From Candidatus Methanogranum gryphiswaldense (lineage in GTDB: Archaea; Thermoplasmatota; Thermoplasmata; Methanomassiliicoccales; Methanomethylophilaceae), in assembly GCA_019262145.1 (NCBI GenBank), contig CP076745.1, positions 493,093 through 557,092 of the forward strand: a stretch of DNA of 64,000 bases, given 5' to 3'. The number at the start of each line of letters is the position of its first letter. Position 1 is the stretch's first letter. Shown in pieces: positions 39,563 to 62,831 of the stretch. The position numbers and the translations under genes are program-made. The notes below the pieces were generated by a model. The model was not told the origin of the DNA. It was given only the letters and a program-made list of their open reading frames with translations, and did not search any database.

Positions 39563-42500
39563 TCATGGTGATTGATCATCATCTTGTTCGTCTCTTTTTT
39601 CTATCAAGCGAGGTCTGACATATTTGCGGTATATGATGTAACCAAGGAATATCAGGAAAATAAAGAACAATATCAGTATGATGCGTACGACATTATTACT
39701 CAAATCAATGTCACTATTTGTTGGTGTGTTGCTCAAGAGTTCTATGGTAATGTTGTCCGTCACTGTGATCGTGAAAGTACCTGTAATGACACCGTCGGCA
39801 TCGGTGTCTGTGAAAGTGCCCTGATAGATTATAGTGTTAGTACTGTCGCGTACTGTTATGGTCAGACTCGTGCAATCTGTGGTTGATTCGACGGTAAAGG
39901 ATTCTACTGTTCCCTCGTCCAAGGTGTTTGGGTCTGGAGTAATGGAGACCGAGGACGGGTTTATGTATGATATTTCACATTCTTTGACGCTCGGGTCTTT
40001 GATAATAGTGTATGATACCGTGGTATCGCTTGCAGGCATCGTGAATGTCAAGGAGTTTGATGTTTGTGATAGGACCACTGCACCGTCTGCATTCCATTGT
40101 TCTATTATGTAATGTTGGGAACCGGTTGTGAAATCAATCGTCACCGTATCTCCAACTTGGTATATGCCAGCACCAGAGAATAGACCATATGTGGAGGAGG
40201 ATATTGAAACAGTATAGCTTCTGAGAGTTGAATCGAAAGTGGCAGTATAGGTAATATTGCCAGTTACAGCAGATATGGCAGGCGACCATCCGGAGAACTC
40301 ATAGTAATATGAACTTGTGGCATTTTTCTGTGGTGTTGATCCGCTGTATACAGGAATATTTCCATAATCAACGGAATCTGTTTTTAAAATTGTACCATTA
40401 TAATTTTCCCAAGTCACGATATAAGAATCTAGATCAAGAGTAATATTTTCATTAAATGCATCTCCGCTCACAGATATCGATAATACTGCATTTTGATGAT
40501 AATGTTCGATGTTTGCAACAATGTTTCCAGATGTTCCGTAAGGTACGTTATTAAGAATATATTTTCCCTCAGAATCAGTGATCGCAGTGTACGTATCAGA
40601 TCCAGATGTTAACACAACCGATATTCCAACAGGAGATAATCCGTTACTTATTGTCAATGTTCCAGATATGGAATATAGATTTGGTGACAAATCGTAAGTT
40701 ATGATTGTTATTTCATTTACAATATCTGTTGCATGTATTGTATACACATTGTCGACATTTGTAAGATTTGTATATGTGGTACCACCAATTAGAACGGTTA
40801 CCAAAGGTGTGCTATGGTCGTATCCAGTGTTAGAATTTACTGTGAACGAATAATCGTTTCCATATTGAGCATCAGTTCCAGAGAGATTAATTGTTGTGCC
40901 TGTCCCCTCATTAGTAGTTACTGTGTATTTGTTGGCAGTCCACATGGCATAAAGTGTAAGATTAGATGTTATTGGATCGTTAAAGTTATATACTGTTGAT
41001 AGTGAAGAGTCTGTGAACCATCCAGAAAGACTGTAGCCAGTCATTGTTGATGATGGTAAAGTTGCACAGGTGTTTTCACAGATCAATTGATTTGGTACGC
41101 TACTTCCACCATTGCTGTCAAATGTAACTGTGTAAAGTAGACCGAAATTAAGAATGCTACTTTTGGTTACATCTGAGTCGAATATAGTGGAATTTGCCCA
41201 ACTTGTACTCCAAATTGTGCATTTATTGTTTGTATTTACGTAAAAAGAAGAATCCTCAATATTTGAAGGTTGACTAAAGAATATGACTGAAATGAGTCCG
41301 CTGCAACCGGAGAATGCACTATTGCCTATTGAAGTGACACTAGATGGAATTGTTATTGATGTTAGATTACTGCATAATTGGAATGTATAATCTTCAATAG
41401 ATGTTACGCCAGATGGGATTGTAATAGAAGTTAGTTTACTGCAACTGTAGAATGCACCACTACCTATTGAAGTGACACTAGATGGGATTGTAATAGAAGT
41501 TAGTTTACTGCAACCGTAGAATGCACAAGTGCCTATTGAAGTGACACTAGATGGAATTGTTATTGATGCTAGATTACTGCATAATTGGAATGTATAATCT
41601 TCAATAGATGTTACGCCAGATGGGATTGTAATAGAAGTTAGTTTACTGCAACTGTAGAATGCACAAGTGCCTATTGAAGTGACACTAGATGGAATTGTTA
41701 TTGATGTTAGATTACCACAATAAAAAGCACCGCTTGCTATTGTTTTGACAGTTGAGGGAATTTCAAATGACCCTGATTTGGAAGTAGGGCAATATATTAG
41801 CATTGTTGAATCTTCATTATATAAAATGGATGAAAAACTAGAGCAACGTCCAAATACAGTTTTACCAATAGAAATGTTACTGGAAGGAACTGAGATAGAT
41901 TTAAGGGCTGTGCAATAGTAAAAAGCGCTATCACCAATGGAAGTTACGCTAGTCGGAAGTATAACAGTTTTGAGACTAGTACAATACTGGAATGCATAAT
42001 CACCAATTGAAATAACCCCGTTGCAGATGTATACATCAATTAATGAACTACAACCATTGAAAGCACTGCTTTTTACGTATGTTACATTTGATCCGATAGT
42101 TAGATGTAATAGTCCTGTACACGATTGAAATGCGCTAGATTCAATTGAACCAGATTGAATATCTATTGAAGTTAACCCTCTGCAGGAACTAAATGCAGAA
42201 TTGCCGATATATGTTACACTTGATGGAAAGGTAAATGAGGTAAGTTTGTTACAATTGTTGAAGGCATAATCACCGATATATGTTACACTTGATGGGATGC
42301 CGACAGTTGTTAATCCAGTACAATAGTCGAAAGCATGATTGCCGATAGACGTTACACTTGAAGGAATGCTGACCGTTGTTAGATTATAACAGTAATAAAA
42401 TGCATAATCACCGATATATGTTACACTTGATGGGATGCCGACAGTTGTTAATCCAGTACAATAGTCGAAAGCATGATTGCCGATAGACGTTACACTTGAA

Positions 42501-43165
42501 GGAATGCTGACCGTTGTTAGATTATAACAGTAATAAAATGCATAATTTCCAATTGATTGTACTCCGGTGGGTATCGTTACAGATGTTAGTTTACTACAAC
42601 CACTAAATGCAGAATCTCCGATCGATAATATTCCTGAGGGTAATGTTACAGATGTTAGCACACTACAACCACTAAATGCATAATTTCCAATTGATTGTAC
42701 TCCGGTGGGTATCGTTACAGATGTTAGTTTACTACAACCACTAAATGCATAATTTCCAATTGATTGTACTCCGGTGGGTATCGTTACAGATGCTAGTTTA
42801 CTACAACCACTAAATGCAGAATCTCCGATCGAGATAATTTTCGATCCAATTATCATCGATGTAATTCCTGTGCTACCCTTAAATCCATCTGCATTTATTG
42901 CGACTATGTCATACGTTATACCATTGTTTACAACAGTAGAAGGTATGGTTATTGAGTTATATAGAAAAGATGATGATCTAGAGATACTAACCGTGCCCTT
43001 GGACGTCGATATGTCTTCTGTTTGGACAGTATATTTAAAATAACCATCGGAGCTGTTAAAGGTATTACCAATGGATGCATCAGAATCATCAGATGTGACT
43101 ATTGCTAAGGATGATACAAGGAACGATATCATTAATACCGTAATCAGTAGTTTTTTCCTATTCAT
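39563..43165 (-). CDS. Very large BspA-type LRR / InlB-repeat surface protein
   Basis: 1200 residues. Signal peptide (KKLLITVLMISFLVSSLAIV), a short lead domain, then about 25 LRR_5 repeats of 23 residues (about 75-660; consensus SITIPSSVTSIGNSAFSGCS). An InlB B-repeat (VTFDSNGG, about 675-740) follows, then a carboxypeptidase-regulatory-like domain (near 855, GISVVLTSGSD with SEGKYILNNVPYG), further beta domains, and a C-terminal helix near 1150-1175 with a basic then acidic tail. The LRR DNA is made of near-identical 69-base units in higher-order blocks, so copy number probably varies between strains. The codon third positions are AT-rich compared with the housekeeping genes. Confidence 0.9.
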   Translation of the reverse strand: MNRKKLLITVLMISFLVSSLAIVTSDDSDASIGNTFNSSDGYFKYTVQTEDISTSKGTVSISRSSSFLYNSITIPSTVVNNGITYDIVAINADGFKGSTGITSMIIGSKIISIGDSAFSGCSKLASVTIPTGVQSIGNYAFSGCSKLTSVTIPTGVQSIGNYAFSGCSVLTSVTLPSGILSIGDSAFSGCSKLTSVTIPTGVQSIGNYAFYYCYNLTTVSIPSSVTSIGNHAFDYCTGLTTVGIPSSVTYIGDYAFYYCYNLTTVSIPSSVTSIGNHAFDYCTGLTTVGIPSSVTYIGDYAFNNCNKLTSFTFPSSVTYIGNSAFSSCRGLTSIDIQSGSIESSAFQSCTGLLHLTIGSNVTYVKSSAFNGCSSLIDVYICNGVISIGDYAFQYCTSLKTVILPTSVTSIGDSAFYYCTALKSISVPSSNISIGKTVFGRCSSFSSILYNEDSTMLIYCPTSKSGSFEIPSTVKTIASGAFYCGNLTSITIPSSVTSIGTCAFYSCSKLTSITIPSGVTSIEDYTFQLCSNLASITIPSSVTSIGTCAFYGCSKLTSITIPSSVTSIGSGAFYSCSKLTSITIPSGVTSIEDYTFQLCSNLTSITIPSSVTSIGNSAFSGCSGLISVIFFSQPSNIEDSSFYVNTNNKCTIWSTSWANSTIFDSDVTKSSILNFGLLYTVTFDSNGGSSVPNQLICENTCATLPSSTMTGYSLSGWFTDSSLSTVYNFNDPITSNLTLYAMWTANKYTVTTNEGTGTTINLSGTDAQYGNDYSFTVNSNTGYDHSTPLVTVLIGGTTYTNLTNVDNVYTIHATDIVNEITIITYDLSPNLYSISGTLTISNGLSPVGISVVLTSGSDTYTAITDSEGKYILNNVPYGTSGNIVANIEHYHQNAVLSISVSGDAFNENITLDLDSYIVTWENYNGTILKTDSVDYGNIPVYSGSTPQKNATSSYYYEFSGWSPAISAVTGNITYTATFDSTLRSYTVSISSSTYGLFSGAGIYQVGDTVTIDFTTGSQHYIIEQWNADGAVVLSQTSNSLTFTMPASDTTVSYTIIKDPSVKECEISYINPSSVSITPDPNTLDEGTVESFTVESTTDCTSLTITVRDSTNTIIYQGTFTDTDADGVITGTFTITVTDNITIELLSNTPTNSDIDLSNNVVRIILILFFIFLIFLGYIIYRKYVRPRLIEKRDEQDDDQSP
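41324..41705 (-). repeat. 207-base higher-order tandem repeat inside the LRR gene
   Basis: Blocks of three 69-base LRR units recur with a period of 207 bases. For example, TGCATAATTGGAATGTATAATC begins at 41371 and again at 41578, and the surrounding sequence is nearly identical over about 170 bases. Confidence 0.8.
42264..42543 (-). repeat. 138-base tandem duplication inside the LRR gene
   Basis: Two adjacent 138-base copies, each two LRR units, are identical as far as I can compare; CACCGATATATG begins at 42271 and again at 42409. Such a recent in-frame duplication changes the protein by 46 residues. Confidence 0.85.
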
Positions 43166-45919: not shown

Positions 45920-46213
45920 ATGAGGACACAACTCAGCAGCGGCACCCTCACATTGATGCCGGAAGGTAGGTTGGATACCTTCACGGCTCAAAGATTTCTA
46001 AACGATGTAGAACCACTGTTGGCAGATGCGGACAGGGTTGTTATAGACCTCAAGGATCTTCAGTATATATCCAGTGCCGGTCTTCGGGCGATACTTGCCA
46101 TACAGAAGCGTATCGGTCCTAAAGGTGGCAGCGTGAGAATAGAGAATGCCTGTGATTTCGTAGCGGAAGTACTTTCTATGACTGGATTTCAGGAACTCAT
46201 AGGATCGGAATGA
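45920..46213 (+). CDS. STAS-domain protein, anti-anti-sigma-factor (RsbV) type
   Basis: 97 residues forming a single STAS domain. It has the strand LTLMPEGRLDTFTAQRF, the strand RVVIDLKDLQYISSAGLR (39-56), and a final helix with VLSMTGFQELI. Ser51/Ser52 in YISSAGLR occupy the phosphorylation site of SpoIIAA/RsbV proteins. In bacteria, an RsbW-type kinase phosphorylates this serine and an RsbU/SpoIIE-type phosphatase removes the phosphate. Here both partner types are present within 9 kb. It is the first gene of the operon; the next starts four bases after its stop. Archaea lack sigma factors, so its ultimate target must differ from the bacterial one. Confidence 0.9.
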   Translation: MRTQLSSGTLTLMPEGRLDTFTAQRFLNDVEPLLADADRVVIDLKDLQYISSAGLRAILAIQKRIGPKGGSVRIENACDFVAEVLSMTGFQELIGSE

Positions 46214-46217
46214 TGTT

Positions 46218-47645
46218 ATGAGGATATTGGACATCCGCGTTAGGACCGAAGCAAGGTCCGTAACATATGTGCAGTCTTGCGTATCCGCTATTGCAAAGGA
46301 ATACGGCCTCAAAGATCTGGATGCCAGTAAGTTGTGTGTTGCAGTGGAGGAGGCGATGATGAATGTCATCGAGAACGCGCCTCCGAAATCAGATGCGGAC
46401 GCTTGGTTCGACATAGGCATTGACATTGGTGATATGGACATAGAGCTGTCAATAAAGGACAGGGGCCGTCCTTTGGACCTTCAGACGATAAGAGAGGATG
46501 ACGACTCTGAATGTATGAACTTAAAGTTGATGAGAGGCCTTACAGACGGAGTGGCCCTCAGCAATCTGGGGGGTGCAGGAAGAGAGCAGAGGATAATCAA
46601 ACGCTTCGAATCTCTTCCGTCCTATGAGAGAAGGGCTCCTGAAGATCGCGCAGAATTTTCAGAGAACATCGAGTTCCGTTTCCATGATCTCAGAGAGAAC
46701 GATGCCATCGAGGTCGCCCAGTGTGTTTACGATGAGTTCGGGTACACATATCAGAACGACACGGTCTACTATCCTGACAAGTTCTACGCCGCATGTACTC
46801 GCAAAGACTACTGTTCCATGGTAGCTTCGGCGCCCAATGGTGAGGTCGCCGGTCATCTGGCCTTGATATTCGATAAGAGACTTCCAGGAATTGCTGAGAT
46901 GGGCATCGGCGTAGTGAAGCACAAATATCGCAATTATTCTGTTATGAAGAATCTTACATCTTCCATACTTAAGCGCGGTGAGGAGGATTACGATCTTAAT
47001 GCTGTCTTTGCGCAATGTTTGATGTGGCACACCATAACTCAAAAGATTAGTCTGAAGAATGGTTTGGTACCTTGTGGGTTCTTCTTTCAATACTGCAGTG
47101 ATGAGATGCGGAACAATTTCAATGGCAGCAATACCCGTGGAAATGTTGCACTCGCCATAAGATCATTACACGACATCGTAAGGGATGATCATGTTCCAGA
47201 AGAGATACATGATATATTTTCTACAGTTATCGAGGGTCTGGGCCTTAATAGGGCAGTCCTTCCCGGGATCGAACCGGCTCAGAATACAACCAGTGAGATA
47301 TACTCGGTCACAAACCGTAATCTGCGTGTAGGGAAGATCTTCATTGACAATGTGGGCTCAGACCTGGAATACAAGATCAAGGACTCTATGCGTATGATAA
47401 AAAAAGAGGGGTGTGCGGTTTGCGAGATGTATATCTGCATGTCGGATCCAGGTGCCATATACGCATATCATTGTGCCAAGGATTCAGATTTCTTTTGTAC
47501 TGGCATATTGCCATGTACGGAGAAAGGCGACATGATAATAATGGAATGTCTGTTCAGTCAGGTTCCGGACTATGGTGCAATGGAAACCATAGGTGCTTTC
47601 ACAGAATTATTGGATAAAGTGAAGAAATTAGACCCATACGGATGA
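46218..47645 (+). CDS. RsbW-like ATPase/kinase domain fused to a GNAT-like domain
   Basis: 475 residues. Residues 1-140 are a GHKL ATPase domain of the anti-sigma-factor kinase type: N-box AVEEAMMNVIENA (about 42-54) and G1 box IKDRGRPLD (about 77-85). The region where the G2 glycines are expected (ECMNLKLMRGL) is poorly conserved. Residues about 150-310 resemble a GNAT acyltransferase (DAIEVAQCVYDEFG, EVAGHLALIF, MGIGVVKHKYRNYSVMKNL). The C-terminal 150 residues are unassigned. It follows the STAS gene by four bases and precedes luxE by four. A link between STAS binding and acyl transfer is suggested but not shown. Confidence 0.8.
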   Translation: MRILDIRVRTEARSVTYVQSCVSAIAKEYGLKDLDASKLCVAVEEAMMNVIENAPPKSDADAWFDIGIDIGDMDIELSIKDRGRPLDLQTIREDDDSECMNLKLMRGLTDGVALSNLGGAGREQRIIKRFESLPSYERRAPEDRAEFSENIEFRFHDLRENDAIEVAQCVYDEFGYTYQNDTVYYPDKFYAACTRKDYCSMVASAPNGEVAGHLALIFDKRLPGIAEMGIGVVKHKYRNYSVMKNLTSSILKRGEEDYDLNAVFAQCLMWHTITQKISLKNGLVPCGFFFQYCSDEMRNNFNGSNTRGNVALAIRSLHDIVRDDHVPEEIHDIFSTVIEGLGLNRAVLPGIEPAQNTTSEIYSVTNRNLRVGKIFIDNVGSDLEYKIKDSMRMIKKEGCAVCEMYICMSDPGAIYAYHCAKDSDFFCTGILPCTEKGDMIIMECLFSQVPDYGAMETIGAFTELLDKVKKLDPYG

Positions 47646-47649
47646 TAAC

Positions 47650-48822
47650 ATGGACTATCACATAAGGAATTTAAACGATCCGGATCCGAAGGTTCCAGAT
47701 GATTCTCTCAATGCCTTACAGTGTCTTTGGGCTTCATCAGACCCGTTCGATCATGATTCGACGGATGATATATTTTTAGAGGCTGTTAAAGAATCTATTA
47801 TCTGGCATATGTCCAATAGTGGATATTTCAGGGATTGGATGGACCGCGATGGATTCAACATCGGATCTTTGAGGACATCTGCAGACCTATGCAAGATACC
47901 ATTCCTGCATGCCAATTTCTATAAGACCCACATAGTTAAAGATCGCGAGGATGATGATTATCTGTTAACGTTGACATCATCAGGGACCACAGGACAGAAA
48001 AGTCAGATGTTCTTTGATAAATGGACACTTCCTGCAATGGATAAGACCTCCGATATCGAGAATCAATATTATGGATACATAACCAATGAACCAGTCAATT
48101 TCATGATGTATGCCTATGAGCCGGTGGAAGGGTTCAATGTCGGGACCTTAAGGACCAGATTGGCAATGATGAGGTATGCCAAGGCCAACGAGACGTTCTA
48201 CGCCTTAAGGTATACAGGCTCTGGACACGAGTTCGACCCATTCGGAAGCATAGATGCTTTGCTGAGGTTCGAAAAGGAAGGACTGCCAGTCCGCATATTG
48301 GGATTCCCAGCATTCCTATATTTCACTTTAGAGATGATGGAGAAGATGGGATACCCACCTTTGAAATTGAATGAAAGGTCGATGGTCGTCGCCGGAGGCG
48401 GATGGAAAGGATTCACGGACAAACAGATGGACCCAGAGAAGTTCCGCAATTATATCGGGGCAAGATTGGGTATACCGGAATCAAGATGTATAGAAAGCTA
48501 CGGGGCAGTCGAACACGGTGTGGCGTACATACAATGTCCAAACCATCATTTTCATGTTCCGATATACAGTCGTGTAATAATCCGTGATACTGAGACCTTG
48601 GAACCGCTTCCTTTTGGGAAGATTGGATTCCTCAATGTGATATCTCCTATGAATACGGGGGTACCGGTGGTCAGTCTTCTCATGGGCGATCTTGCGATAC
48701 TACACGAGGGTTGTGAATGCGGATGTGGGACGAATGCACCCTGGTTCGAGATAATAGGCAGAGCCGGAACATCCAAGAATCGTAGCTGTGCAGTGGCCGC
48801 TGCGGAACTCTTGAGGAGATGA
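47650..48822 (+). CDS. LuxE-like acyl-protein synthetase (adenylate-forming)
   Basis: 390 residues of the LuxE family, which activates a carboxylic acid with ATP and transfers the acyl group to its own cysteine for reduction by LuxC. The AMP-binding P-loop is TSSGTTGQKSQ (109-119). VVAGGGWKG and ESYGAVEHG follow, the latter in the position of the adenylate-binding core. A CECGCG knot and a Cys ten residues from the C-terminus (NRSCAVAAAELL) occupy the end, where the acyl-accepting Cys of luminous-bacterial LuxE lies. It directly precedes a LuxC-containing gene. The substrate acid is unknown, and no luxAB genes are present, so light emission is not implied. Confidence 0.88.
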   Translation: MDYHIRNLNDPDPKVPDDSLNALQCLWASSDPFDHDSTDDIFLEAVKESIIWHMSNSGYFRDWMDRDGFNIGSLRTSADLCKIPFLHANFYKTHIVKDREDDDYLLTLTSSGTTGQKSQMFFDKWTLPAMDKTSDIENQYYGYITNEPVNFMMYAYEPVEGFNVGTLRTRLAMMRYAKANETFYALRYTGSGHEFDPFGSIDALLRFEKEGLPVRILGFPAFLYFTLEMMEKMGYPPLKLNERSMVVAGGGWKGFTDKQMDPEKFRNYIGARLGIPESRCIESYGAVEHGVAYIQCPNHHFHVPIYSRVIIRDTETLEPLPFGKIGFLNVISPMNTGVPVVSLLMGDLAILHEGCECGCGTNAPWFEIIGRAGTSKNRSCAVAAAELLRR

Positions 48823-48826
48823 TGAT

Positions 48827-51283
48827 ATGACCCACATATGGAAAGGTGTCGAGATAGGTGACAATGAGTTGGAGCAACATATCAACGGATTGACCGAGGA
48901 TCTTATCAACTCAATGTCCGAAGTATTGTGCACCGAAGATGTTCTAGATGCGTGTGATCGCATGTCCCATATCCTCAAAGAGCGTAGAAAGGAGATGTTT
49001 GATGCTCTGGAGGAGGACGACTGTATAGACCCAGATGGTGTTTTACAAACTCTTTCTATTGCACTTGCCAGAGATTCTCTTGAAACAAAACTGATCGTAG
49101 AATTAGGGACCGAGAAGCCCGCAGATCCGAGACGTGTAAATTATCGTGAGCAGAAATATGAATGCTGGGCCCCGATGGGCGTAATAGTGCACATAACAGC
49201 CGGAAACTCATTGGTGGTCGCCCCCATGGCTTCAGTGGAGGGGCTTCTGACCGGTAATGTGAATATAATGAAAGTGGCCAAAGGTACAGGGAGTTTTGCC
49301 TCTTGGTTCCTGAGGACATTATCCGAGTTCTCCAATCTGTCCAAATTCATCTACCTTCTTCGCATATCGTCCTCTCGCAAGGACATAATGGAAAAGGTCA
49401 TTGGACATGCCGATTGCGTCAGCGTATGGGGAGGAGAGGACGCAGTAAGATCGGTCAAGGATATGACGCCGGCCAACATACCGGTCGTCGTCTGGGGCCA
49501 TAAGATAAGTTTTGCGTATGTCACTCCTTCGGAGATGAACAATGATACCGTAGAAGGCATAGCTCATTCTGTCTGTAGGAACCATCAGCAATCCTGTTCC
49601 AGTCCTCAATGTGTTCTTGTGGACACGAACGACAGGGAAGAGGTATTGAGATTCTCAGAGATGTTGGCCGATGCCCTAGAACAGGTCGGAATGGCATACC
49701 CTATTCCAGATCCGGACATTGCTCAGAAAGCTGAGATCTCTTCAGTGGTCCATCTTCATAGAGCGGATCTGTATTTTAATGACGGGACAGTGATAGAGAG
49801 GAAGGACTGCCGTGTTTTGGTAAGTTATTCTTCAAAATTCTTGCCTTCTCCTTTGTTCCGCACAATATGGGTATCGCCAATGCCTCATGCAGATATAGTA
49901 AGGGGGCTCAACGGAATGAGGGCGTATCTTCAGACAGCCGGTCTTGCATGTGCCAAAGAAGAGATGTACGACATTGTGTCGATTCTTTATCGTGTCGGGG
50001 TCACCCGTATAACTCCAGTAGGTTCCATGAGCGTGTCCTACACAGGAGAGCCGCATGACGGTATGTTCGCGCTATCCAGATTTATGAAGAGGGTCTCTTT
50101 CCGTACGGAAGAGGATATGTGCGGCATAGTGAGCCTATCCGAGATGCACAGGCTTGAAATTAAAAAAACATCTGGGCCGATACAGGTCAAGAAGGATTAT
50201 CCATCAGTACCAGAGAATGGTACCAGGACGATCATGAAGAGCGGGGGAACGACAGGGGTCCCACTTTATTGCAGTTACACTGACAAGGATTACAGACAAT
50301 ACATCATAATGCCTGCGGCCCAGAGTTTCATGGCGGCAGGTCTGGACCCCGAAAAGGATGTCGTGGCGGACCTGTTGAAAGCAGGCCATATGTACGGGGG
50401 AATGAATTGTTTCATATCAGTATTTGATGAACTAGGTGCCCCGCATCTCAACATCGGCGGACTCATAGATAGTCTGGAGCAGACCGCGGACTATATGGTA
50501 AGAGGGAAGGCGAATGCCGTTCTGGGAGCACCCAGTTTCATAACTAGGCTGTTCAGGGCGAATGAGAAAAAATTGAAGGATTACGGAAAGATAAAGAAGG
50601 TCTTCTGCAGCGGAGAGCACATTTCCGAAGGCCAGATAAGATATCTCAAAGAGGAGTTCGGCATAGAGCAGATATCATCGTTCATGTACGGCAGTAATGA
50701 GAACGGGACAATAGGATTCGCATGTAAATGCTGTAGACCGGGGATGTTCCATCTCTGTTCTGACATCCAAAGGATGGAGATAGTCAAGATGGACAGGGAT
50801 GAGCCCGTAGGTCCGGATGAAGAGGGCAGGATACTGATTACAGGTTTCATGAGAGAGAACGGCCATACGGAACGTTACGAGATCGGGGATATCGGCAAGT
50901 GGGTCCATGACGATTGCGAATGTGGCAGGGGAACCCCCAGATTCACACTTGTCGGAAGGTACGGAGATGTTATCCGTATCGGAGGGACGTTCTTCAACTA
51001 TCATAAGATCGCCAGCATATTGTCCGACGATATCGGATATAGAGGACGTCTTCAGCTTCTTTTAGAACGGAGAGGTCTATCCGAAGTGATGGTCTTCTGC
51101 ATGGAGGACACGGATATAACTCCCGAGATGCTCAAGACTACGTTCTTGAACAGCGGGTACGAGCCATTTCAGAGGACAATGCCCAATGATCTATTCCTTC
51201 TCGATGTGAAGATGATGTTCCACGATGAGTTCATACAGAACGAAACGAGCATAAAGTTGCGTTCGGTGGTGGACCGTCGTTGA
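48827..51283 (+). CDS. Fusion: LuxC-like acyl reductase with PaaK/LuxE-like adenylating domain
   Basis: 818 residues in two enzymes. Residues 1 to about 435 are a LuxC-type acyl-CoA/acyl-protein reductase of the aldehyde dehydrogenase superfamily. VHITAGNSLVVAPM lies near 121-134 and the catalytic Cys257 in NHQQSCSSPQ. Residues about 440-818 are a phenylacetate-CoA ligase-like adenylating domain with P-loop KSGGTTGVP (471-479), a VFCSGEHIS strand, YGSNENGTIGFACKCC, and a C-terminal GDIGKW plus GRYGD hinge. The chain can therefore activate and reduce an acid to an aldehyde. It follows luxE by four bases and overlaps the MATE gene by four. The fusion plus a separate LuxE gives two activating domains, possibly for two substrates. 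Confidence 0.88.
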   Translation: MTHIWKGVEIGDNELEQHINGLTEDLINSMSEVLCTEDVLDACDRMSHILKERRKEMFDALEEDDCIDPDGVLQTLSIALARDSLETKLIVELGTEKPADPRRVNYREQKYECWAPMGVIVHITAGNSLVVAPMASVEGLLTGNVNIMKVAKGTGSFASWFLRTLSEFSNLSKFIYLLRISSSRKDIMEKVIGHADCVSVWGGEDAVRSVKDMTPANIPVVVWGHKISFAYVTPSEMNNDTVEGIAHSVCRNHQQSCSSPQCVLVDTNDREEVLRFSEMLADALEQVGMAYPIPDPDIAQKAEISSVVHLHRADLYFNDGTVIERKDCRVLVSYSSKFLPSPLFRTIWVSPMPHADIVRGLNGMRAYLQTAGLACAKEEMYDIVSILYRVGVTRITPVGSMSVSYTGEPHDGMFALSRFMKRVSFRTEEDMCGIVSLSEMHRLEIKKTSGPIQVKKDYPSVPENGTRTIMKSGGTTGVPLYCSYTDKDYRQYIIMPAAQSFMAAGLDPEKDVVADLLKAGHMYGGMNCFISVFDELGAPHLNIGGLIDSLEQTADYMVRGKANAVLGAPSFITRLFRANEKKLKDYGKIKKVFCSGEHISEGQIRYLKEEFGIEQISSFMYGSNENGTIGFACKCCRPGMFHLCSDIQRMEIVKMDRDEPVGPDEEGRILITGFMRENGHTERYEIGDIGKWVHDDCECGRGTPRFTLVGRYGDVIRIGGTFFNYHKIASILSDDIGYRGRLQLLLERRGLSEVMVFCMEDTDITPEMLKTTFLNSGYEPFQRTMPNDLFLLDVKMMFHDEFIQNETSIKLRSVVDRR

Positions 51284-53016
51284 AAGATCAGGAGATGCAA
51301 CGTAACCCATATCTTATGAATCGGGCCTTCAGAGTGTATCTTCTAGCTACGATCCTGTCCACAATGGCCGTTGCCCTTGGAAGTGTGTTCAACGGTATAG
51401 TCGTGGGCAATCTGATCGGTCCGGATGCATTGAGCGCGGTCAATCTTTGTTCTCCGTTGTTACAGATGCTCAATGCGATCTCTGCATTGATAAACATAGG
51501 TGGGGCCACATTGGCGGCAACCTATCTTGGACGTGGGAGACGTGATGATTACAGACGGATATTCAGATTATCTTTCCATATGAGCATAGTCGCGGGCATA
51601 TTGCTTATGATCGCAGGTCTGTTCTTTTTGGATCAGATATCCTCCGTTCTATGCAGTGACAGTTCCCTGCTACCTATGGTAAAGGAATATACATTTGTGA
51701 TATTGATGAGCGGGGTCCTTGCCATAATGTTGCCTGGAATGTGCGCATTCGTAAGGACAGACGGCAATCCCAAGCTCTCGACGTATGCCTTGATAACATT
51801 CTGTCTTACGAATATAATCCTGGATATTGTTTTCATATCGGGTCTTGGAATGGGCATCGGAGGGTCTGCGATCGCTACAGCTTGCGGTTACGTTACTGGA
51901 TTGATAGTCCTGTCTTTGCATCGCAGACATCCCATGAGAATGATATCATTCTCAGGAAAAGGAGGGTCTGTCAGCAGGGTAGCGATCCTTCAGATGGGAG
52001 CCCCTGTTGCGATCGCATCTCTTCTGATGACCGTTCGGATCCTGGGCCTAAACATACTGGTTCTCGGTTCGTTGGGGTCAGAAGGGGCCAGTGTAATGGC
52101 GGTCTGCATCAATCTAATGGTATTATCATCTGTATTCATCGGAGGGACGTCTCAGACGATGCAACCTGTATGCGGTGTCCTGTATGGCTCTGAGGATCAT
52201 ACAGGAATGGATATGGTGATCAAAAGAGCGTTAACGATCCTGATGTTGTCTTTGATCGTCATCACCATCATCATATTCATCTTCCCGTCGGATATAGCGT
52301 CGATCTTCGGCATAAGGGATGATTCGGTATTGTCATATTCAGACACGGCCTTGCGTATGTTCGCATTGAGTCTTCCACTCTATGGAATAAACTACTTCCT
52401 GATGATAATATACCAGATAAGCGGGAGGAAGGCATTGGCATCGGTGGTGTCAGCTCTGCAGTCGTTGGTGGTACTCGTGGTCGCGGCGATCTTTGTGTTC
52501 GATGGATATTCGGACATGATATGGGCTGCATTCGCTGTAGGGGAATCAATTGTGTTCCTAGTTATATTGGTCATGTCGGTGATAATGAGGTTCCGTTCAG
52601 GCACAAAGATGTTGACACTGATTAAGCGTCATGTGGCAAAGGGTGATGAATTGGAGATGTCCGTTAAGAATAACGGAGAGGACATGTCTTTGTTGATGGA
52701 TTCGATGGATTCTTTTTTGGAAAGGAACGGTGCAGGAAAACAGCTTCGTACACATGTACGTCTATGTTGTGAAGAACTCGTTATCAACATAATGGAGCAC
52801 GGTAGTTCCGGAAATAAAGGGTACATTGATGTGACCATAAGGATGTCCGATGGCAATTCGGCGGTATTGTGTCTCAGAGATGATTCCTTCCCGTTCGATC
52901 CGATAAATTATGACAAGGATGGGCGTGGGCTTATGATGGTCAAGCGGATATGCACTTCTTTGCAGTATTCCAGAGTGATAGGTCAAAATGTAGTGGTGGC
53001 CAAACTTTCAGGTTGA
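51280..53016 (+). CDS. Fusion: MATE-family exporter with C-terminal RsbW-like ATPase domain
   Basis: 578 residues. Residues about 10-445 form twelve helices of a MATE multidrug/organic cation exporter. Residues about 455-578 are a GHKL domain of the anti-sigma-kinase type, with N-box CCEELVINIMEHG, G1 LRDDSFPFDP and G2 DGRGLMMVKRI all intact. A transporter carrying its own STAS-binding kinase domain suggests direct gating of export by the STAS protein; this is inference. The frame starts at TTG 51280, overlapping the previous stop; ATG 51295 is the alternative. Its end overlaps the convergent phosphatase gene by nine bases. Confidence 0.88.
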   Translation: MKDQEMQRNPYLMNRAFRVYLLATILSTMAVALGSVFNGIVVGNLIGPDALSAVNLCSPLLQMLNAISALINIGGATLAATYLGRGRRDDYRRIFRLSFHMSIVAGILLMIAGLFFLDQISSVLCSDSSLLPMVKEYTFVILMSGVLAIMLPGMCAFVRTDGNPKLSTYALITFCLTNIILDIVFISGLGMGIGGSAIATACGYVTGLIVLSLHRRHPMRMISFSGKGGSVSRVAILQMGAPVAIASLLMTVRILGLNILVLGSLGSEGASVMAVCINLMVLSSVFIGGTSQTMQPVCGVLYGSEDHTGMDMVIKRALTILMLSLIVITIIIFIFPSDIASIFGIRDDSVLSYSDTALRMFALSLPLYGINYFLMIIYQISGRKALASVVSALQSLVVLVVAAIFVFDGYSDMIWAAFAVGESIVFLVILVMSVIMRFRSGTKMLTLIKRHVAKGDELEMSVKNNGEDMSLLMDSMDSFLERNGAGKQLRTHVRLCCEELVINIMEHGSSGNKGYIDVTIRMSDGNSAVLCLRDDSFPFDPINYDKDGRGLMMVKRICTSLQYSRVIGQNVVVAKLSG

Positions 53017-54825
53017 TTGTTCGATTTCGATCTCAGTTGTGGTTCTGTTCATATCCTTCACCCTCAGATATGTGAACTTGCGCGATATTTTGTTTACAAG
53101 CAATATCCCATTGCCCCCAAGTTCTCTGTTCTCCAGATCCTGGTCCGGACATTGTCTTTTATGACAGGTTGGATCGAATTCCGGGCCATCATCTTCGAAT
53201 ATCAATACGACAAGGTCATGTCCAGAATATATTTCGAATGAGATATCATTGCGTGCTCCGGAATGTTCTGATATGTTCATGAACAATTCTTCTGCCACCA
53301 ATACTATAGGTTCGATCACAGGTATGTCTTTACAGACCTCTCTTATTGTAGATACAATGATGTGCAGGCTTTCCTTTTCGGGAGGTACAAAAACTGCAAT
53401 GCTCCGTCCTTCACGTTTTATAGCAAGCATGGACAGATCATCGGATTGCGGACATTCTTTCGTGAATTCTTCTAATGCGAAACGTACTTCCGATACAAGT
53501 CCTGTCGAAGATTCTGAGTTCGATATTTCCAGGGCATTCTTGAGTCTGGCCTCTCCGAACATGTTCTCCGTCTGATCCGTAGCTTCTGTCACTCCGTCAG
53601 TATAGAGGAAGATGGTTTGTCCAGGATGCATGACGACCTCCGAATCATGATATTTTCTTTCAGCTATACCAAGGAAGGGTTCCGCCCGTACCTGAAGTCT
53701 CTCGTATTTCCCTCTTGTACCGAGGAGCGGTGGGTTATGTCCAGCGCATGAGTACTTGACAGTTCCCGATCCCATATCCAATAATCCGAAGAATACTGTA
53801 ACGAACATGCACGTGTCGTTATCTCTCATTAGTTCTTTGTTTGCTTCCTCCAAGACCTTGGAAGGCTGCAGTCCGGAGATAGCCTTCTCTCTTATGATGG
53901 CCTTGGATCTCATCATGAACAAAGCAGCAGGTATCCCCTTGTCAGATACATCGGCCATTACAATGGCGAGTTTTCCATTATCCATGATGAAGAAATCATA
54001 GAAATCCCCTCCGATCGTCCTTGCAGGTGACATGTATGCGCTGACATCTATCCTTTTGTCAGGGGGACAGGATTTAGGGAGTACTGAACACTGTATCATT
54101 TTTGCCGCATAAAGTTCTGCAGCGGCTTTAGATTCCTCTGAAACAGCTGCGACCTCTTTGAACAGCAAATAGAGCATCAGTAGGTAGAGTATCAGAACTG
54201 TAATAGTGTTTATTTGAAATCCGATGGAGTATGCTTCGATTTCCTGAGTGGAATACCATGCAGAATAATCTACTATTATCAATGCTAGAACTATGGCCAG
54301 CGCAGTAGAGAGCTCTCCAACACTTTTTCCAGCATCGTCGATCATCCGTTTGATATTATGTTTGAAAAGTGCAATGTAGATGATGATCACGGCGACATTC
54401 AGAGAAAATTGAATGCTCAGATAGCCTAGGTCCCCGTAAGGTTTTCCGAGTTGGAAGAACAAGGTGTCGCATATGAAGCCGTTGACGATTATCTGCATGG
54501 ATAGGGTCAACATCACGGAGAATAATCTGACCGTTTTTGATTCAGAGTAGATGATGGTGGTTCCAGAGTAGACTGCTAACAAGATAACGATTAGCTCAAT
54601 CATTTCTGAGCCGGATTCTGATATTAAATTATCATCGTAAAGTAATGTATATGATATCAAGAATACGGCGATAAAGAGGGCAACGAATATCAGAAGCCAC
54701 GTTATTATTGTTTTTTTGTAATCATGCTTTCTTTTCAAGATCGAATCAGTCATTATTGCGCAGAATATACCCACGATCAATATGGAGGCGGCTTGGAATA
54801 ATGTAGAGAGGAAATCGAATTGCAT
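53008..54825 (-). CDS. Membrane SpoIIE/RsbU-type PP2C phosphatase with C-terminal RsbW-like domain
   Basis: 605 residues. About seven transmembrane helices (10-225) resemble a sensory membrane module. A PP2C/SpoIIE phosphatase domain follows (about 240-460) with the metal motif GGDFYD (272-277), MADVSDKGIPAALFM and a DDLSML end. A GHKL domain (about 470-605) has EELFMNISEHSG and FEDDGPEFDP. In bacteria such phosphatases dephosphorylate an RsbV-type STAS protein, releasing it to trap RsbW. The only STAS protein in sight is the one at 45920. It converges on the operon with a 9-base overlap and lies downstream of two five-helix sensor genes on the same strand. Confidence 0.9.
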   Translation of the reverse strand: MQFDFLSTLFQAASILIVGIFCAIMTDSILKRKHDYKKTIITWLLIFVALFIAVFLISYTLLYDDNLISESGSEMIELIVILLAVYSGTTIIYSESKTVRLFSVMLTLSMQIIVNGFICDTLFFQLGKPYGDLGYLSIQFSLNVAVIIIYIALFKHNIKRMIDDAGKSVGELSTALAIVLALIIVDYSAWYSTQEIEAYSIGFQINTITVLILYLLMLYLLFKEVAAVSEESKAAAELYAAKMIQCSVLPKSCPPDKRIDVSAYMSPARTIGGDFYDFFIMDNGKLAIVMADVSDKGIPAALFMMRSKAIIREKAISGLQPSKVLEEANKELMRDNDTCMFVTVFFGLLDMGSGTVKYSCAGHNPPLLGTRGKYERLQVRAEPFLGIAERKYHDSEVVMHPGQTIFLYTDGVTEATDQTENMFGEARLKNALEISNSESSTGLVSEVRFALEEFTKECPQSDDLSMLAIKREGRSIAVFVPPEKESLHIIVSTIREVCKDIPVIEPIVLVAEELFMNISEHSGARNDISFEIYSGHDLVVLIFEDDGPEFDPTCHKRQCPDQDLENRELGGNGILLVNKISRKFTYLRVKDMNRTTTEIEIEQST

Positions 54826-55004
54826 GAGGACGGTATGTTCATCTTCCGAGGAATATAACTTTTTATTGTAGCAAGGGAAACAGATCCTGGGATCTTTTTG
54901 CTTAATTGGCCATTCTCTTAATGTATTTTGAAAATCAAGAATATAGGTCGTTTGTCGTAAAAGATGAATTAATCTTGATCATAGGTCATATCGGTAAATG
55001 AAAA

Positions 55005-55625
55005 TTACCATTCGAGAGGTTTATGTCTGATATAATGTAAGTAGATCGACGAGTATATCAGTGCAGACAATGCAGCAAGACACAGCATAAGGATGACGTT
55101 ATCCCTTACGAATTCTTGGTTCGATGGTGAGGCTATCCAAAGCAGAAAAAGCTGCACAGATTCTGCACATACAGCGGCGATAAGTGTCCAACTTATTCTG
55201 GGGTATTTCATTCCCGCCATCCATCTTATCATTCCGCCGATGACTCCTGCGATCACAGCAGAGACCGCACATGCGATCTGTGGATCTGCGCCTGAGAGTA
55301 TGCCTTCGGCGCCAATTATAGCTCCTGCGATCACCCCTACGCGTGGCCCTCCTGCCAAACCTGCGAGAGTAGCAACGAAGATGACGGTATTCACGTAATA
55401 ACCGTCGAGATCATAGGAAAAGAAATGTGTTGTGATCACTCCCACGAATCCAAATGATAGGATCTTCACTATTGCATTCCTAACATCATAATCTCCATTA
55501 TTGTCAAAGCTCCGCATGTGGTCTGATTTATGGAGGTAAAAGGCAAGTAGCAACAAGATAAAAACGACGATTATCATGTTCAAGAAGATGCTTTTGTACG
55601 AGACGATGTCCAGCATCACTATCAT
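55005..55625 (-). CDS. LytS-type five-helix (5TMR-LYT-like) membrane sensor B
   Basis: 206 residues, about six hydrophobic helices and no soluble output domain. The core has the 5TMR-LYT pattern of glycine-rich turns: GLAGGPRVGVIAGAIIGAEGILSG near 95-118, then AGVIGGMIRWMAG. In bacteria this module is fused to a histidine kinase (LytS), GGDEF or SpoIIE output. Here it stands alone and its start overlaps the stop of its paralogue by four bases. The SpoIIE-type phosphatase follows 180 bases downstream on the same strand. Joint sensing upstream of the phosphatase is inferred. Confidence 0.75.
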   Translation of the reverse strand: MIVMLDIVSYKSIFLNMIIVVFILLLLAFYLHKSDHMRSFDNNGDYDVRNAIVKILSFGFVGVITTHFFSYDLDGYYVNTVIFVATLAGLAGGPRVGVIAGAIIGAEGILSGADPQIACAVSAVIAGVIGGMIRWMAGMKYPRISWTLIAAVCAESVQLFLLWIASPSNQEFVRDNVILMLCLAALSALIYSSIYLHYIRHKPLEW

Positions 55626-56245
55626 ATGATCTTCTCCTTGTCCTCGAGGATATATTTATGGTAAATATACGAAGCGACAACCATGCATATCGTGTTCCCT
55701 ATGATCATCACAGGACCGATTATCGAAATTATATCGTATCCGTCATCGATAAAAAGTGCGATGAGACACATGTTTATCGTTTCTGTTGCGAATATGAGTA
55801 TCACGGCGTTGAGTACGGTTGGGAATTTCTTTCCGGAAAAATACCAGAGTAAGCCTCCCAATGCGCCTGCGATGATAGTGCCCAACATAGAAGGGACCGC
55901 TGTGGTGCCCCCAGATAAAAATCCTTCTACGCCGACCACGATCCCTGTCGGGATACCTACCATAGGTCCTCCAAGCATTCCTGCAAACATAACAGGGAAA
56001 TCCCTTATGTTGATCAAGATACCGTTTTCAATGGATATCGTCAGATATTCAGTTGTTATAATGCCGATGATTGAGAATACAACAGTTGCTTTTAGGACAT
56101 TTTTCCAGGATATTGCGCATCTATCGTTTATTACGGATTTATTCGTCTTTTTGTAGATATATGCGACCAGCATTATGGTGAAGACCTCTGCAATCATGAT
56201 AAGGATGAATGTGTAATATTCGTAGAGATCCATTCCAGACACCAT
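55622..56245 (-). CDS. LytS-type five-helix membrane sensor A
   Basis: 207 residues, paralogous to the next gene along its whole length: GMLGGPMVGIPTGIVVGVEGFLSGG matches the glycine-rich block of the partner, and both have a VxGVITT or IIGIITTEY segment near residue 60. It is the first gene of a probable three-gene transcript (A, B, phosphatase). No ligand is deducible. In LytS proteins this region detects membrane or small-metabolite signals such as pyruvate; I do not extend that to this protein. Confidence 0.75.
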   Translation of the reverse strand: MVSGMDLYEYYTFILIMIAEVFTIMLVAYIYKKTNKSVINDRCAISWKNVLKATVVFSIIGIITTEYLTISIENGILINIRDFPVMFAGMLGGPMVGIPTGIVVGVEGFLSGGTTAVPSMLGTIIAGALGGLLWYFSGKKFPTVLNAVILIFATETINMCLIALFIDDGYDIISIIGPVMIIGNTICMVVASYIYHKYILEDKEKII

Positions 56246-60978: not shown

Positions 60979-61892
60979 AGGTTCAGTTCTGTTTTTTCAA
61001 TGTATTTCAGGACTCATTTTTTAGGTGTACATATGGGGGTTTCTTTAAAACCTGAGTTCGACGGTGTGTCATACTTCTGTATGATTTCATCTGTACGTTT
61101 GACCATGCGTTTGATCATGCGATGGCTTTCCTTCCAGATGTTTGACGCGCTCTTGAACTCTGGAATTTCAGCTACTTCCCGCACCCCATACGAAGAAGTT
61201 ATTTCTCAGCCGATACGATATGATTGTGCAGATAAACAGAAATAGGGAGTTTCCCCGTTTCGACCTGTTTAAAACACGGTCGATCTTAATTTTGTTAGAT
61301 ACATCTCACGAAGGTGATGGTACTATTTGGTATTGATCAATTTCATTCGGCTCTAGGACGAACGTCCTGAGCTTAAAATGGTTTTGTGTCACAATGGAGT
61401 ATCGTTGTTCAGGACACTTTTATTTTTTTCCTAGCTTCAGTATTAATCGATTCTTTGCATCAGATCCTATCGAATTTAGGAGTCATACAATCGATCATGC
61501 ACTGTTCTTGATTTTGGTTGCACTCAAAAATTCAAAGTACTTATATAGTGTTGAAAAACATACATTTTCGAGTAAGGACTTGGGTGTTGATTTGTATAAG
61601 GCAGTTAAATGAAAAACAAGCATCTGTTTCATTATTTTCAGTGGACAAATATGGTTGTGGTGTGGTTCATTTTCTATGTCGTCCACATTACTATTTCGTA
61701 TTGTGTCTTTTTTCAATCCCAATATACGAATCAAATTCGAATCCTGTTATTATCAATCTGGAAGTCTTTCAAAAATCTGAATCGGAATATCATGCTTCCA
61801 AAGCAATGGTATTTGCAGAATTGAAAAGACCTCTATTTTTTGTAAATCGTACATTAAAACTGATTTAAGATTAGATGTTGGAGTATATGATC
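60979..61892. other. 914-base region without a convincing gene
   Basis: Several small frames exist but none has strong support. On the minus strand 61014-61184 encodes a 56-residue charged, helical fragment (GTG start, containing SNIWKESHRMIKRMVKRTDE) that looks protein-like and may be the tail of a decayed gene. On the plus strand a frame at 61609-61824 encodes a 71-residue peptide with one hydrophobic stretch and a TATA-like CTTATATAG about 70 bases upstream. A near-palindrome CGACC...GGTCG lies at 61260-61281 and a strong hairpin (GCTCTAGGACG-AA-CGTCCTGAGC) at about 61350-61372. T-rich sequence at 61424-61437 could end a small RNA. Confidence 0.3.
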
Positions 61893-62831
61893 ATGAAAAT
61901 AAAAAAATACGGCAATTGTCTTCTTTTTGCATCTATCGTTGTTGTCTTGGCATCGGTGGCTGTGATAGGGGTAGTTACTTCAGACAATGATATGTCTATG
62001 AATACCTCGGATGAGACTACGGCTCCATCTGTTTTTGGAGCACCGGTCTACTATGACTATAACCATACGATAACCGCCAGTGCTGGTTTTGGAGGTTCTA
62101 TATCGCCTTCGTCCGCGACAGTTTACAGCGGTGGGTCTCAGACCTTCACCATCACTGCGTCGGCAGGTTATACGATATCCGATGTAAAGGTTGATGGCGT
62201 GAGCGTAGGCGTTGTCTCGACATACACATTCACCAATGTCACAAGCAATCATACGATATCTGCGACATTCTCGGGTGGACAATTCACGATAACTGCCAGT
62301 GCTGGTTATGGAGGTTGGATATCACCGTCATCTGCAACGGTCTCTCAGGGGGGGTCTAAGACCTTCAATATAACCACATTTTCAGGGTACACAATATCGA
62401 ATGTAATTGTCGATGGTGCCAGCGTGGGTTCGGTCTCGACATACACATTCACCAATGTCACCAGGGATCATACGATATCTGTGGAATTCTTAACACAACA
62501 TTACACGATAACCGTCAATGCGTATTATGGAGGTTCGATATCTCCAGGAATTTCGATGTCAGTTTATTCGGGGGCGTATACGACCTTCAAAATAACCGCT
62601 TGGGATGGATATGAAATAGATAATGTAATCGTCGATGGTGTAAGCATGGGTGGGATCTCGACCTATACTTTTAATAATGTGACTTCAAACCATACTATTT
62701 CAGCAACATTCTATGAAACTGCTGAAGACAACGCTATTAATTTTGGTTTATTGTTTGCGGCAATTCTTGCATTTCTCGTACTTCTGTTTATGATCATAAT
62801 GTATATGATGAGCATGAATACGAAAAAATAA
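61893..62831 (+). CDS. Repeat-containing membrane-anchored surface protein
   Basis: 312 residues. Signal peptide after KIKKYGNC, then three repeats of about 70 residues. Each is built as ITASAGYGGSISPSSATV..GGSQTF, a GYTISDVKVDGVSVG strand, STYTFTNVTSNHTISATF, and a linker. This is the divergent InlB B-repeat/Bacterial repeat pattern. A C-terminal helix (FGLLFAAILAFLVLLFMIIMYM) anchors it. ATGs at 61875 and 61887 are also in frame. I take 61893 because GGAG lies nine bases upstream and the basic N-terminus of the signal peptide begins there. It is the shortest of the surface proteins in the window. Confidence 0.85.
   Translation: MKIKKYGNCLLFASIVVVLASVAVIGVVTSDNDMSMNTSDETTAPSVFGAPVYYDYNHTITASAGFGGSISPSSATVYSGGSQTFTITASAGYTISDVKVDGVSVGVVSTYTFTNVTSNHTISATFSGGQFTITASAGYGGWISPSSATVSQGGSKTFNITTFSGYTISNVIVDGASVGSVSTYTFTNVTRDHTISVEFLTQHYTITVNAYYGGSISPGISMSVYSGAYTTFKITAWDGYEIDNVIVDGVSMGGISTYTFNNVTSNHTISATFYETAEDNAINFGLLFAAILAFLVLLFMIIMYMMSMNTKK

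Follow-up and report, generated by a model that had tools for sequence, protein, structure and literature searches.

A bacterial-type partner-switching gene set joined to a putative small-molecule synthesis and export operon in the archaeon Candidatus Methanogranum gryphiswaldense

Results

The window analysed here is a stretch of 64,000 nucleotides from Candidatus Methanogranum gryphiswaldense, a gut-type archaeon of the order Methanomassiliicoccales. It covers positions 493093-557092 of a genome of 1,516,968 bases that forms a single contig and is 99.9% complete, which rules out contamination as the source of the locus described below. Positions 45920-56245 of the window carry the three families of a bacterial partner switch, namely a STAS protein, RsbW-like HATPase domains and a SpoIIE/RsbU phosphatase, together with enzymes and an exporter. 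The plus-strand operon (45920-53016) has the order STAS, HATPase-GNAT, LuxE, LuxC-PaaK, MATE-HATPase, with 4-base gaps or a small overlap between genes. Converging on it tail to tail is a minus-strand group of a SpoIIE-HATPase gene (53008-54825) and two 5TMR_LYT genes (55005-56245). All reading frames of the locus are intact. Across the entire genome, Pfam gave 1 STAS, 3 HATPase_c_2, 1 SpoIIE and 2 5TMR_LYT matches, every one at this locus, and zero matches to Sigma70_r2 in a search that was positive in 10 bacterial controls. The genes lie where an initial annotation, made from the sequence alone, had placed them, with STAS, three HATPase_c_2 domains, SpoIIE, MatE, LuxE and LuxC-AMP-binding confirmed by Pfam, and its claim of a full partner-switching set without a sigma factor was borne out.

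The first gene of the operon (45920..46213, plus strand) encodes a 97-amino-acid STAS protein of the RsbV/SpoIIAA type (Pfam STAS, 4.5e-16), which aligns to RsbV (6m36_B) and SpoIIAA (1auz/1th8). Its predicted phospho-serine, Ser52 (codon 46073-46075), lies in the motif Y-I-S-S-A-G-L and is aligned with the RsbV/SpoIIAA site; a serine is kept there in 26/26 STAS domains of related loci. In one related archaeon, G060, the STAS and HATPase-GNAT proteins are naturally fused into a single protein of 590 amino acids.

The open reading frame at 53008-54825 combines a phosphatase and a putative kinase in one polypeptide: a membrane region comes first, followed by a SpoIIE/RsbU PP2C phosphatase domain (53413..53979, minus strand; Pfam SpoIIE, 3.8e-46) and then by an RsbW-like domain, HATP_3 (53011..53358, minus strand; HATPase_c_2, 1.3e-7). 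The metal-binding motifs of the phosphatase, GGDFYD, DVSDKG and DDLS, are present, and a Pfam scan of the locus proteins gave no match to a receiver (REC) domain. The two neighbouring genes encode membrane proteins with 5TM-5TMR_LYT domains (55005..55625, 7.8e-18, and 55622..56245, 7.3e-27, both minus strand). They had been described as LytS-type sensors, which holds for the membrane domain, but they have no GAF or kinase part. In another archaeon of the same order (G117; L145:8062-10254) a 5TMR_LYT domain, of the family of the second of these proteins, is joined directly to SpoIIE in one protein, with RsbW and STAS coming next, and because of this fusion the two window proteins are likely sensors of the phosphatase.

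Two further RsbW-like GHKL domains are fused to operon proteins, as the initial annotation had proposed: HATP_1 at the N-terminus of the GNAT protein (46218..46637, plus strand; HATPase_c_2, 1.4e-9) and HATP_2 at the C-terminus of the MATE protein (52636..53016, plus strand; HATPase_c_2, 1.1e-11). A motif table, its classes counted by hand, set the three window domains against 43 from related loci and a partial reference for RsbW. HATP_3 has E, N, DxG and GxG intact and a lid of 19 residues, and is the only one of the three with the full GHKL serine-kinase signature. Of the 21 SpoIIE-linked HATPases, all keep the N-box asparagine and 19 have a lid of exactly 19 residues. HATP_2 keeps the N box and GxG, with serine in place of one G1 glycine and a lid of 7 residues; MATE-fused HATPases of archaea and Bacteroidales retain the asparagine and GxG in 7/7 copies, with lids of 7-8 residues. 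In HATP_1, the E, N box and DxG are kept, the G2 glycines are lost (C-M-N) and the lid is about 11 residues long. Among archaeal GNAT-fused HATPases the asparagine is found in 2/6 and the G2 box is largely lost, while several bacterial copies are intact. HATP_1 gave a weak match to RsbW (6m36_A), and PDB sequence searches from HATP_2 and HATP_3 gave chance matches only. The earlier count of three RsbW domains stands for the family assignment, but only HATP_3 has a full kinase signature and the other two are better read as derived; loss of ATP-binding residues is partial and is clear in the GNAT-fused domain only.

Given this class split in the N and G2 boxes and in lid length, the simplest reading of the sequences makes HATP_3 the kinase and takes HATP_1 and HATP_2 as derived binding domains, probably docking tags. 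Alternatively, all three HATPases could be active STAS kinases, with STAS acting upstream to release or inhibit each of them as in RsbV-RsbW and each fused enzyme serving as a private output. The E, N and GxG kept in HATP_2 and HATP_3, the E, N and DxG of HATP_1 in the window and the intact bacterial HATP_1 copies would all fit such an arrangement. However, all seven archaeal and Bacteroidales copies of HATP_2 have lids of 7-8 residues, compared with 19 in the kinases linked to SpoIIE, the asparagine is lost from HATP_1 in 4/6 archaea and the window copy lacks its G2 glycines, and so we regard three active kinases as unlikely. A docking role for derived HATPases may extend beyond these two proteins. 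In Fibrimonas termitidis the ATPase of an ATP-binding cassette (ABC) transporter (L073:1813-2886) carries a C-terminal degenerate HATPase (E 2e-4) and adjoins an amino-acid-type binding protein and permease and a LuxE/LuxC-PaaK/MATE-HATP/HATP-GNAT operon.

The remainder of the operon encodes enzymes and an exporter. Following HATP_1 is a double GNAT-fold acyltransferase part (46653..47645, plus strand), sub-threshold in Pfam by sequence and clear in the predicted structure of the G060 homologue (Foldseek, 1e-7). The LuxE-like acyl-protein synthetase (47650..48822, plus strand; Pfam LuxE, 5e-30) keeps the C-terminal cysteine motif R-S-C-A-V-A-A-A-E-L, as do all relatives. The next protein (48827..51283, plus strand) joins a LuxC acyl-CoA reductase (4e-83) to an AMP-binding domain of the PaaK/F390-synthetase type (6e-11); its catalytic Cys257 (Q-Q-S-C-S-S-P-Q) is kept, being invariant in alignment A1 and present in nearly all relatives. 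NCBIfam equivalog cut-offs for Lux proteins were not reached, and the Pfam-scanned operon proteins gave no GGDEF match. The MATE-family exporter (51280..52614 within a frame reaching 53016, plus strand; MatE, 3.4e-32) has a predicted structure that matches the Pyrococcus furiosus MATE (3wbn/4mlb, E 3e-14). Since its relatives begin at about that point, the protein may start at ATG 51295 instead of TTG 51280. From these assignments, activation and reduction of an acyl group would fall to LuxE and LuxC-PaaK, transfer of an acyl group to the GNAT and export of the product to MATE. Import genes adjoining bacterial versions, namely a Trp/Tyr permease in Sulfurimonas and the amino-acid ABC importer in Fibrimonas, hint that the product is amino-acid-derived; the Sulfurimonas permease (L083:10165-11352) points in particular to an aromatic amino acid.

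We searched for HATP-GNAT over 151 relatives and re-annotated the fetched stretches. The order STAS, HATP-GNAT, LuxE, LuxC-PaaK, MATE-HATP, whose conservation the initial annotation had left to be established, recurs in five other Methanomassiliicoccales, four of one genus (G005, G056, G060 and G067; genus g4) and one of another family of the order (G095), with SpoIIE adjacent or elsewhere in the genome; in G060 it lies away from the operon. A profile search found full-length fused LuxC-PaaK in exactly 6/390 genomes of the phylum, the same six that have a full operon-type HATP-GNAT, and SpoIIE is present in 6/6 of these carriers as against 29/390 genomes overall. G136 (L025), an archaeon further removed, also has HATP-GNAT, STAS and SpoIIE, along with a stand-alone RsbW; neither LuxE nor LuxC-PaaK was matched on its contig of 12 kb.

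So patchy a distribution, with the operon absent from both same-genus genomes, is what a decaying, laterally acquired cassette of little function in the archaeon would leave, and the degeneration of HATP_1 would fit as well. Against decay, the window frames are intact, and the LuxC cysteine, LuxE cysteine and STAS serine are kept in all archaeal operon copies, at identities of 30-67%. Intact frames and kept catalytic residues make purifying selection likely, and we consider decay very improbable.

Related gene sets were found by scanning 84,980 species genomes and annotating the matches; they occur in Aequorivita, Sphingobacterium, Azonexus, Dokdonella/Lysobacterales, Candidatus Contendobacter, Sulfurimonas and Fibrimonas. 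Most of these sets have SpoIIE and an independent RsbW-like protein as neighbours, though not in the stretches examined from Contendobacter or Fibrimonas. The closest bacterial relative is a Bacteroidales genome that has the genes on three contigs. One holds STAS with HATP-GNAT (41% identity to the window) and adjoins them to murC-ftsA-ftsZ-trxB, a second holds LuxE (64%) and LuxC-PaaK (57%), and on the third MATE-HATP (43%) adjoins lolA and ftsK. With MurC, FtsA, FtsZ, thioredoxin reductase, LolA and FtsK in the flanks, mis-binned archaeal contigs were ruled out as an explanation for this genome. In our trees the six archaea, the Bacteroidales and a Eubacteriales sequence (short contig L035, possibly mis-binned) group in a single clade within the bacterial sequences. 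Monophyly of the archaea is not supported by the trees, nor does the approximately unbiased test reject it (p 0.46 for LuxC-PaaK and 0.29 for HATP-GNAT), so transfer between archaea and Bacteroidales can be read in either direction. In the relatives checked, the outer flank genes are on separate contigs or about 150 kb apart, and no empty insertion site can be read. Given the bacterial relatives and the trees, the module is found mainly in bacteria and has passed between domains. It is not an archaeal peculiarity: the same genes occur in Bacteroidota, Campylobacterota, Fibrobacterota and Proteobacteria, and sigma-independent switches are known in bacteria.

The pathway also exists without the tag. 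About 57 bacterial loci, mostly from Streptomyces, pair the LuxE/LuxC-PaaK core with a HATPase-free GNAT. In hhalign, the GNAT of a HATPase-free Streptomyces locus aligns with the GNAT part of the HATP-GNAT family at a probability of 96%, and one from Bacteriovorax does so more weakly (72%). No STAS gene was detected in the stretches of these ~57 loci, and a SpoIIE-type gene lies somewhere in the stretch in 5 of them, compared with 8/10 bacterial HATPase-GNAT loci. As the species are not independent, this association of tag and switch is a correlation.

Several other gene sets came to light in these searches. In archaea of genus g7 (L023:7334-14295, L024), a HATPase-free homologue of the window GNAT adjoins two ABC half-exporters; L023 also holds a short-chain dehydrogenase and a heliorhodopsin gene. 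In Methanomethylophilaceae of genus g4 (L142:251-10159, L143:8076-18001, L144:2-10035) a large nonribosomal peptide synthetase (NRPS) is accompanied by SpoIIE-HATPase and STAS, so that a second set of biosynthetic genes adjoins a partner switch. The L142 NRPS is dimodular with a terminal thioester-reductase domain of the peptide-aldehyde type, and in L144 at least, a 4'-phosphopantetheinyl transferase follows the NRPS and precedes SpoIIE-HATPase and STAS. Two further archaeal switch sets comprise ABC exporters, STAS, a GH3-family amido synthetase, RsbW and SpoIIE (L140:2556-10524), and a peptidase-C39 ABC exporter pair, STAS and SpoIIE-HATPase (L141:3600-10153). Near the window locus, at 39563-43165 and 61875-62831, lie large surface-type proteins rich in repeats, BspA/LRR-like in one case and in the other a repeat protein ending in a hydrophobic stretch.

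Discussion

We consider it probable that the locus encodes a partner switch of bacterial type, spread horizontally and independent of sigma factors, and that this switch controls an operon for the synthesis and export of a small molecule through protein-protein contact. This proposal takes its direct inputs from sequence: the gene set and its conservation, the intact kinase, phosphatase and phospho-site motifs, the degeneration of HATP_1, the STAS-HATP_1 fusion and the correlation of tag and switch. Phosphorylation, docking, the direction of control, the chemistry and the input signal are what we infer from them. In our model, the membrane SpoIIE-HATP_3 protein would act as both kinase (HATP_3) and phosphatase (PP2C) for Ser52 of STAS, with the two 5TMR proteins as its likely signal input. 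A signal favouring dephosphorylation would yield unphosphorylated STAS, which would dock on HATP_1 of the GNAT and HATP_2 of the MATE and so switch acyl transfer and export together. The acyl intermediate, either activated or reduced to the aldehyde level, would come from LuxE and LuxC-PaaK. The direct action of STAS on enzyme and transporter that the initial annotation envisaged is supported, as a conditional reading of the genes.

Several observations weigh against this model. The N-box asparagine is retained in the window and f6 copies of HATP_1, as are most motifs in HATP_2, so that ATP binding or use by these domains is still possible. In L020 the operon SpoIIE (474 amino acids) is without a HATPase and the 19-residue-lid kinase of that genome lies at a separate locus, L140, and neither G060 nor the Bacteroidales showed a SpoIIE next to the operon genes. 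The STAS part of the G060 fusion model has a predicted local distance difference test score of only ~50, because STAS-only rows are not alignable to the fusion, and this low confidence gives the model no weight for or against STAS docking. Finally, the coenzyme A (CoA)-loop glycines of the GNAT are altered in the archaeal clade: the loop R-x-x-G-x-G/A reads R-N-Y-S-V-M at 46911-46955 of the window and is similar throughout the archaeal/Bacteroidales clade, so CoA use by the window GNAT is not assured.

Gene expression is the endpoint of most known partner switches (PMC8256260), and free STAS or a HATPase protein could likewise act on a transcription factor elsewhere, with the fusions serving only for localisation. 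Yet the genome has no sigma factor, and no transcription factor was recognised in the conserved set of the archaeal and bacterial loci examined; a transcriptional output accordingly seems to us quite improbable.

Slightly short of an even chance, in our estimation, is a broader version of direct control by STAS, in which the RsbW-like HATPase is a portable STAS-docking tag carried by the GNAT, the MATE and the Fibrimonas ABC ATPase. One STAS phospho-switch would then govern a specialised-metabolite pathway post-translationally, without a sigma factor or DNA-binding protein, and a like switch stands beside the NRPS, GH3 and ABC-exporter sets of related archaea. If direct control is correct, RsbV/RsbW/RsbU, a switch generally presented as a means of controlling sigma factors, has been connected directly to a biosynthetic enzyme and an exporter, and partner switching can operate in a domain of life that lacks them. 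Clients under direct control could then be recognised in sequence by their degenerate HATPase tags, and pathway pairs with and without the HATPase would offer a clean test of direct control.

We read the locus as a previously undescribed form of sigma-independent partner switching. In a literature search judged from titles and abstracts, and not exhaustive, we found no description of an archaeal partner switch or of client proteins with their own RsbW-like domain. The classical RsbU-RsbV-RsbW and SpoIIE-SpoIIAA-SpoIIAB systems have the same three families with conserved catalytic motifs, but here there is no sigma factor and the kinase-like domains are fused to an enzyme, a transporter and the phosphatase. 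On the enzyme side, the catalytic parts of LuxC and LuxE from the LuxCDE fatty-acid reductase are present, whereas neither the LuxD acyl-transferase nor the luciferase LuxAB is among the genes of the conserved operon. The LuxE/LuxC-PaaK/GNAT/MFS clusters of Streptomyces and Bacteriovorax share the enzyme core, with the GNAT just before LuxE; they differ in that the GNAT is without a HATPase, STAS was not detected and the exporter, where checked, is MFS rather than MATE.

The known sigma-independent switches of bacteria include SypA/SypE, SiaABCD and BtrUVW (PMC10120452, PMC7647112, PMC8256260). As at our locus, the phosphatase, the kinase and the phospho-protein of SiaABCD in Pseudomonas are encoded together with an enzyme, in an operon, and no sigma factor is involved; the unphosphorylated protein directly controls the operon enzyme (PMC7647112). 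There, however, the enzyme is a diguanylate cyclase and the site is Thr68 of SiaC, in contrast to a serine in a classical STAS domain beside an acyltransferase and exporter. In SypA/SypE of Vibrio fischeri, an RsbW-like serine kinase and a PP2C-type phosphatase likewise share one protein that acts on a single-domain STAS, and STAS is the downstream effector, as we propose here, rather than an anti-sigma antagonist (PMC10120452). SypE has a central REC domain and an N-terminal kinase, whereas the locus protein begins with a membrane region, ends in its putative kinase and has no REC domain that we could find. While the target of SypA is unknown, the candidate targets at this locus bear HATPase tags.

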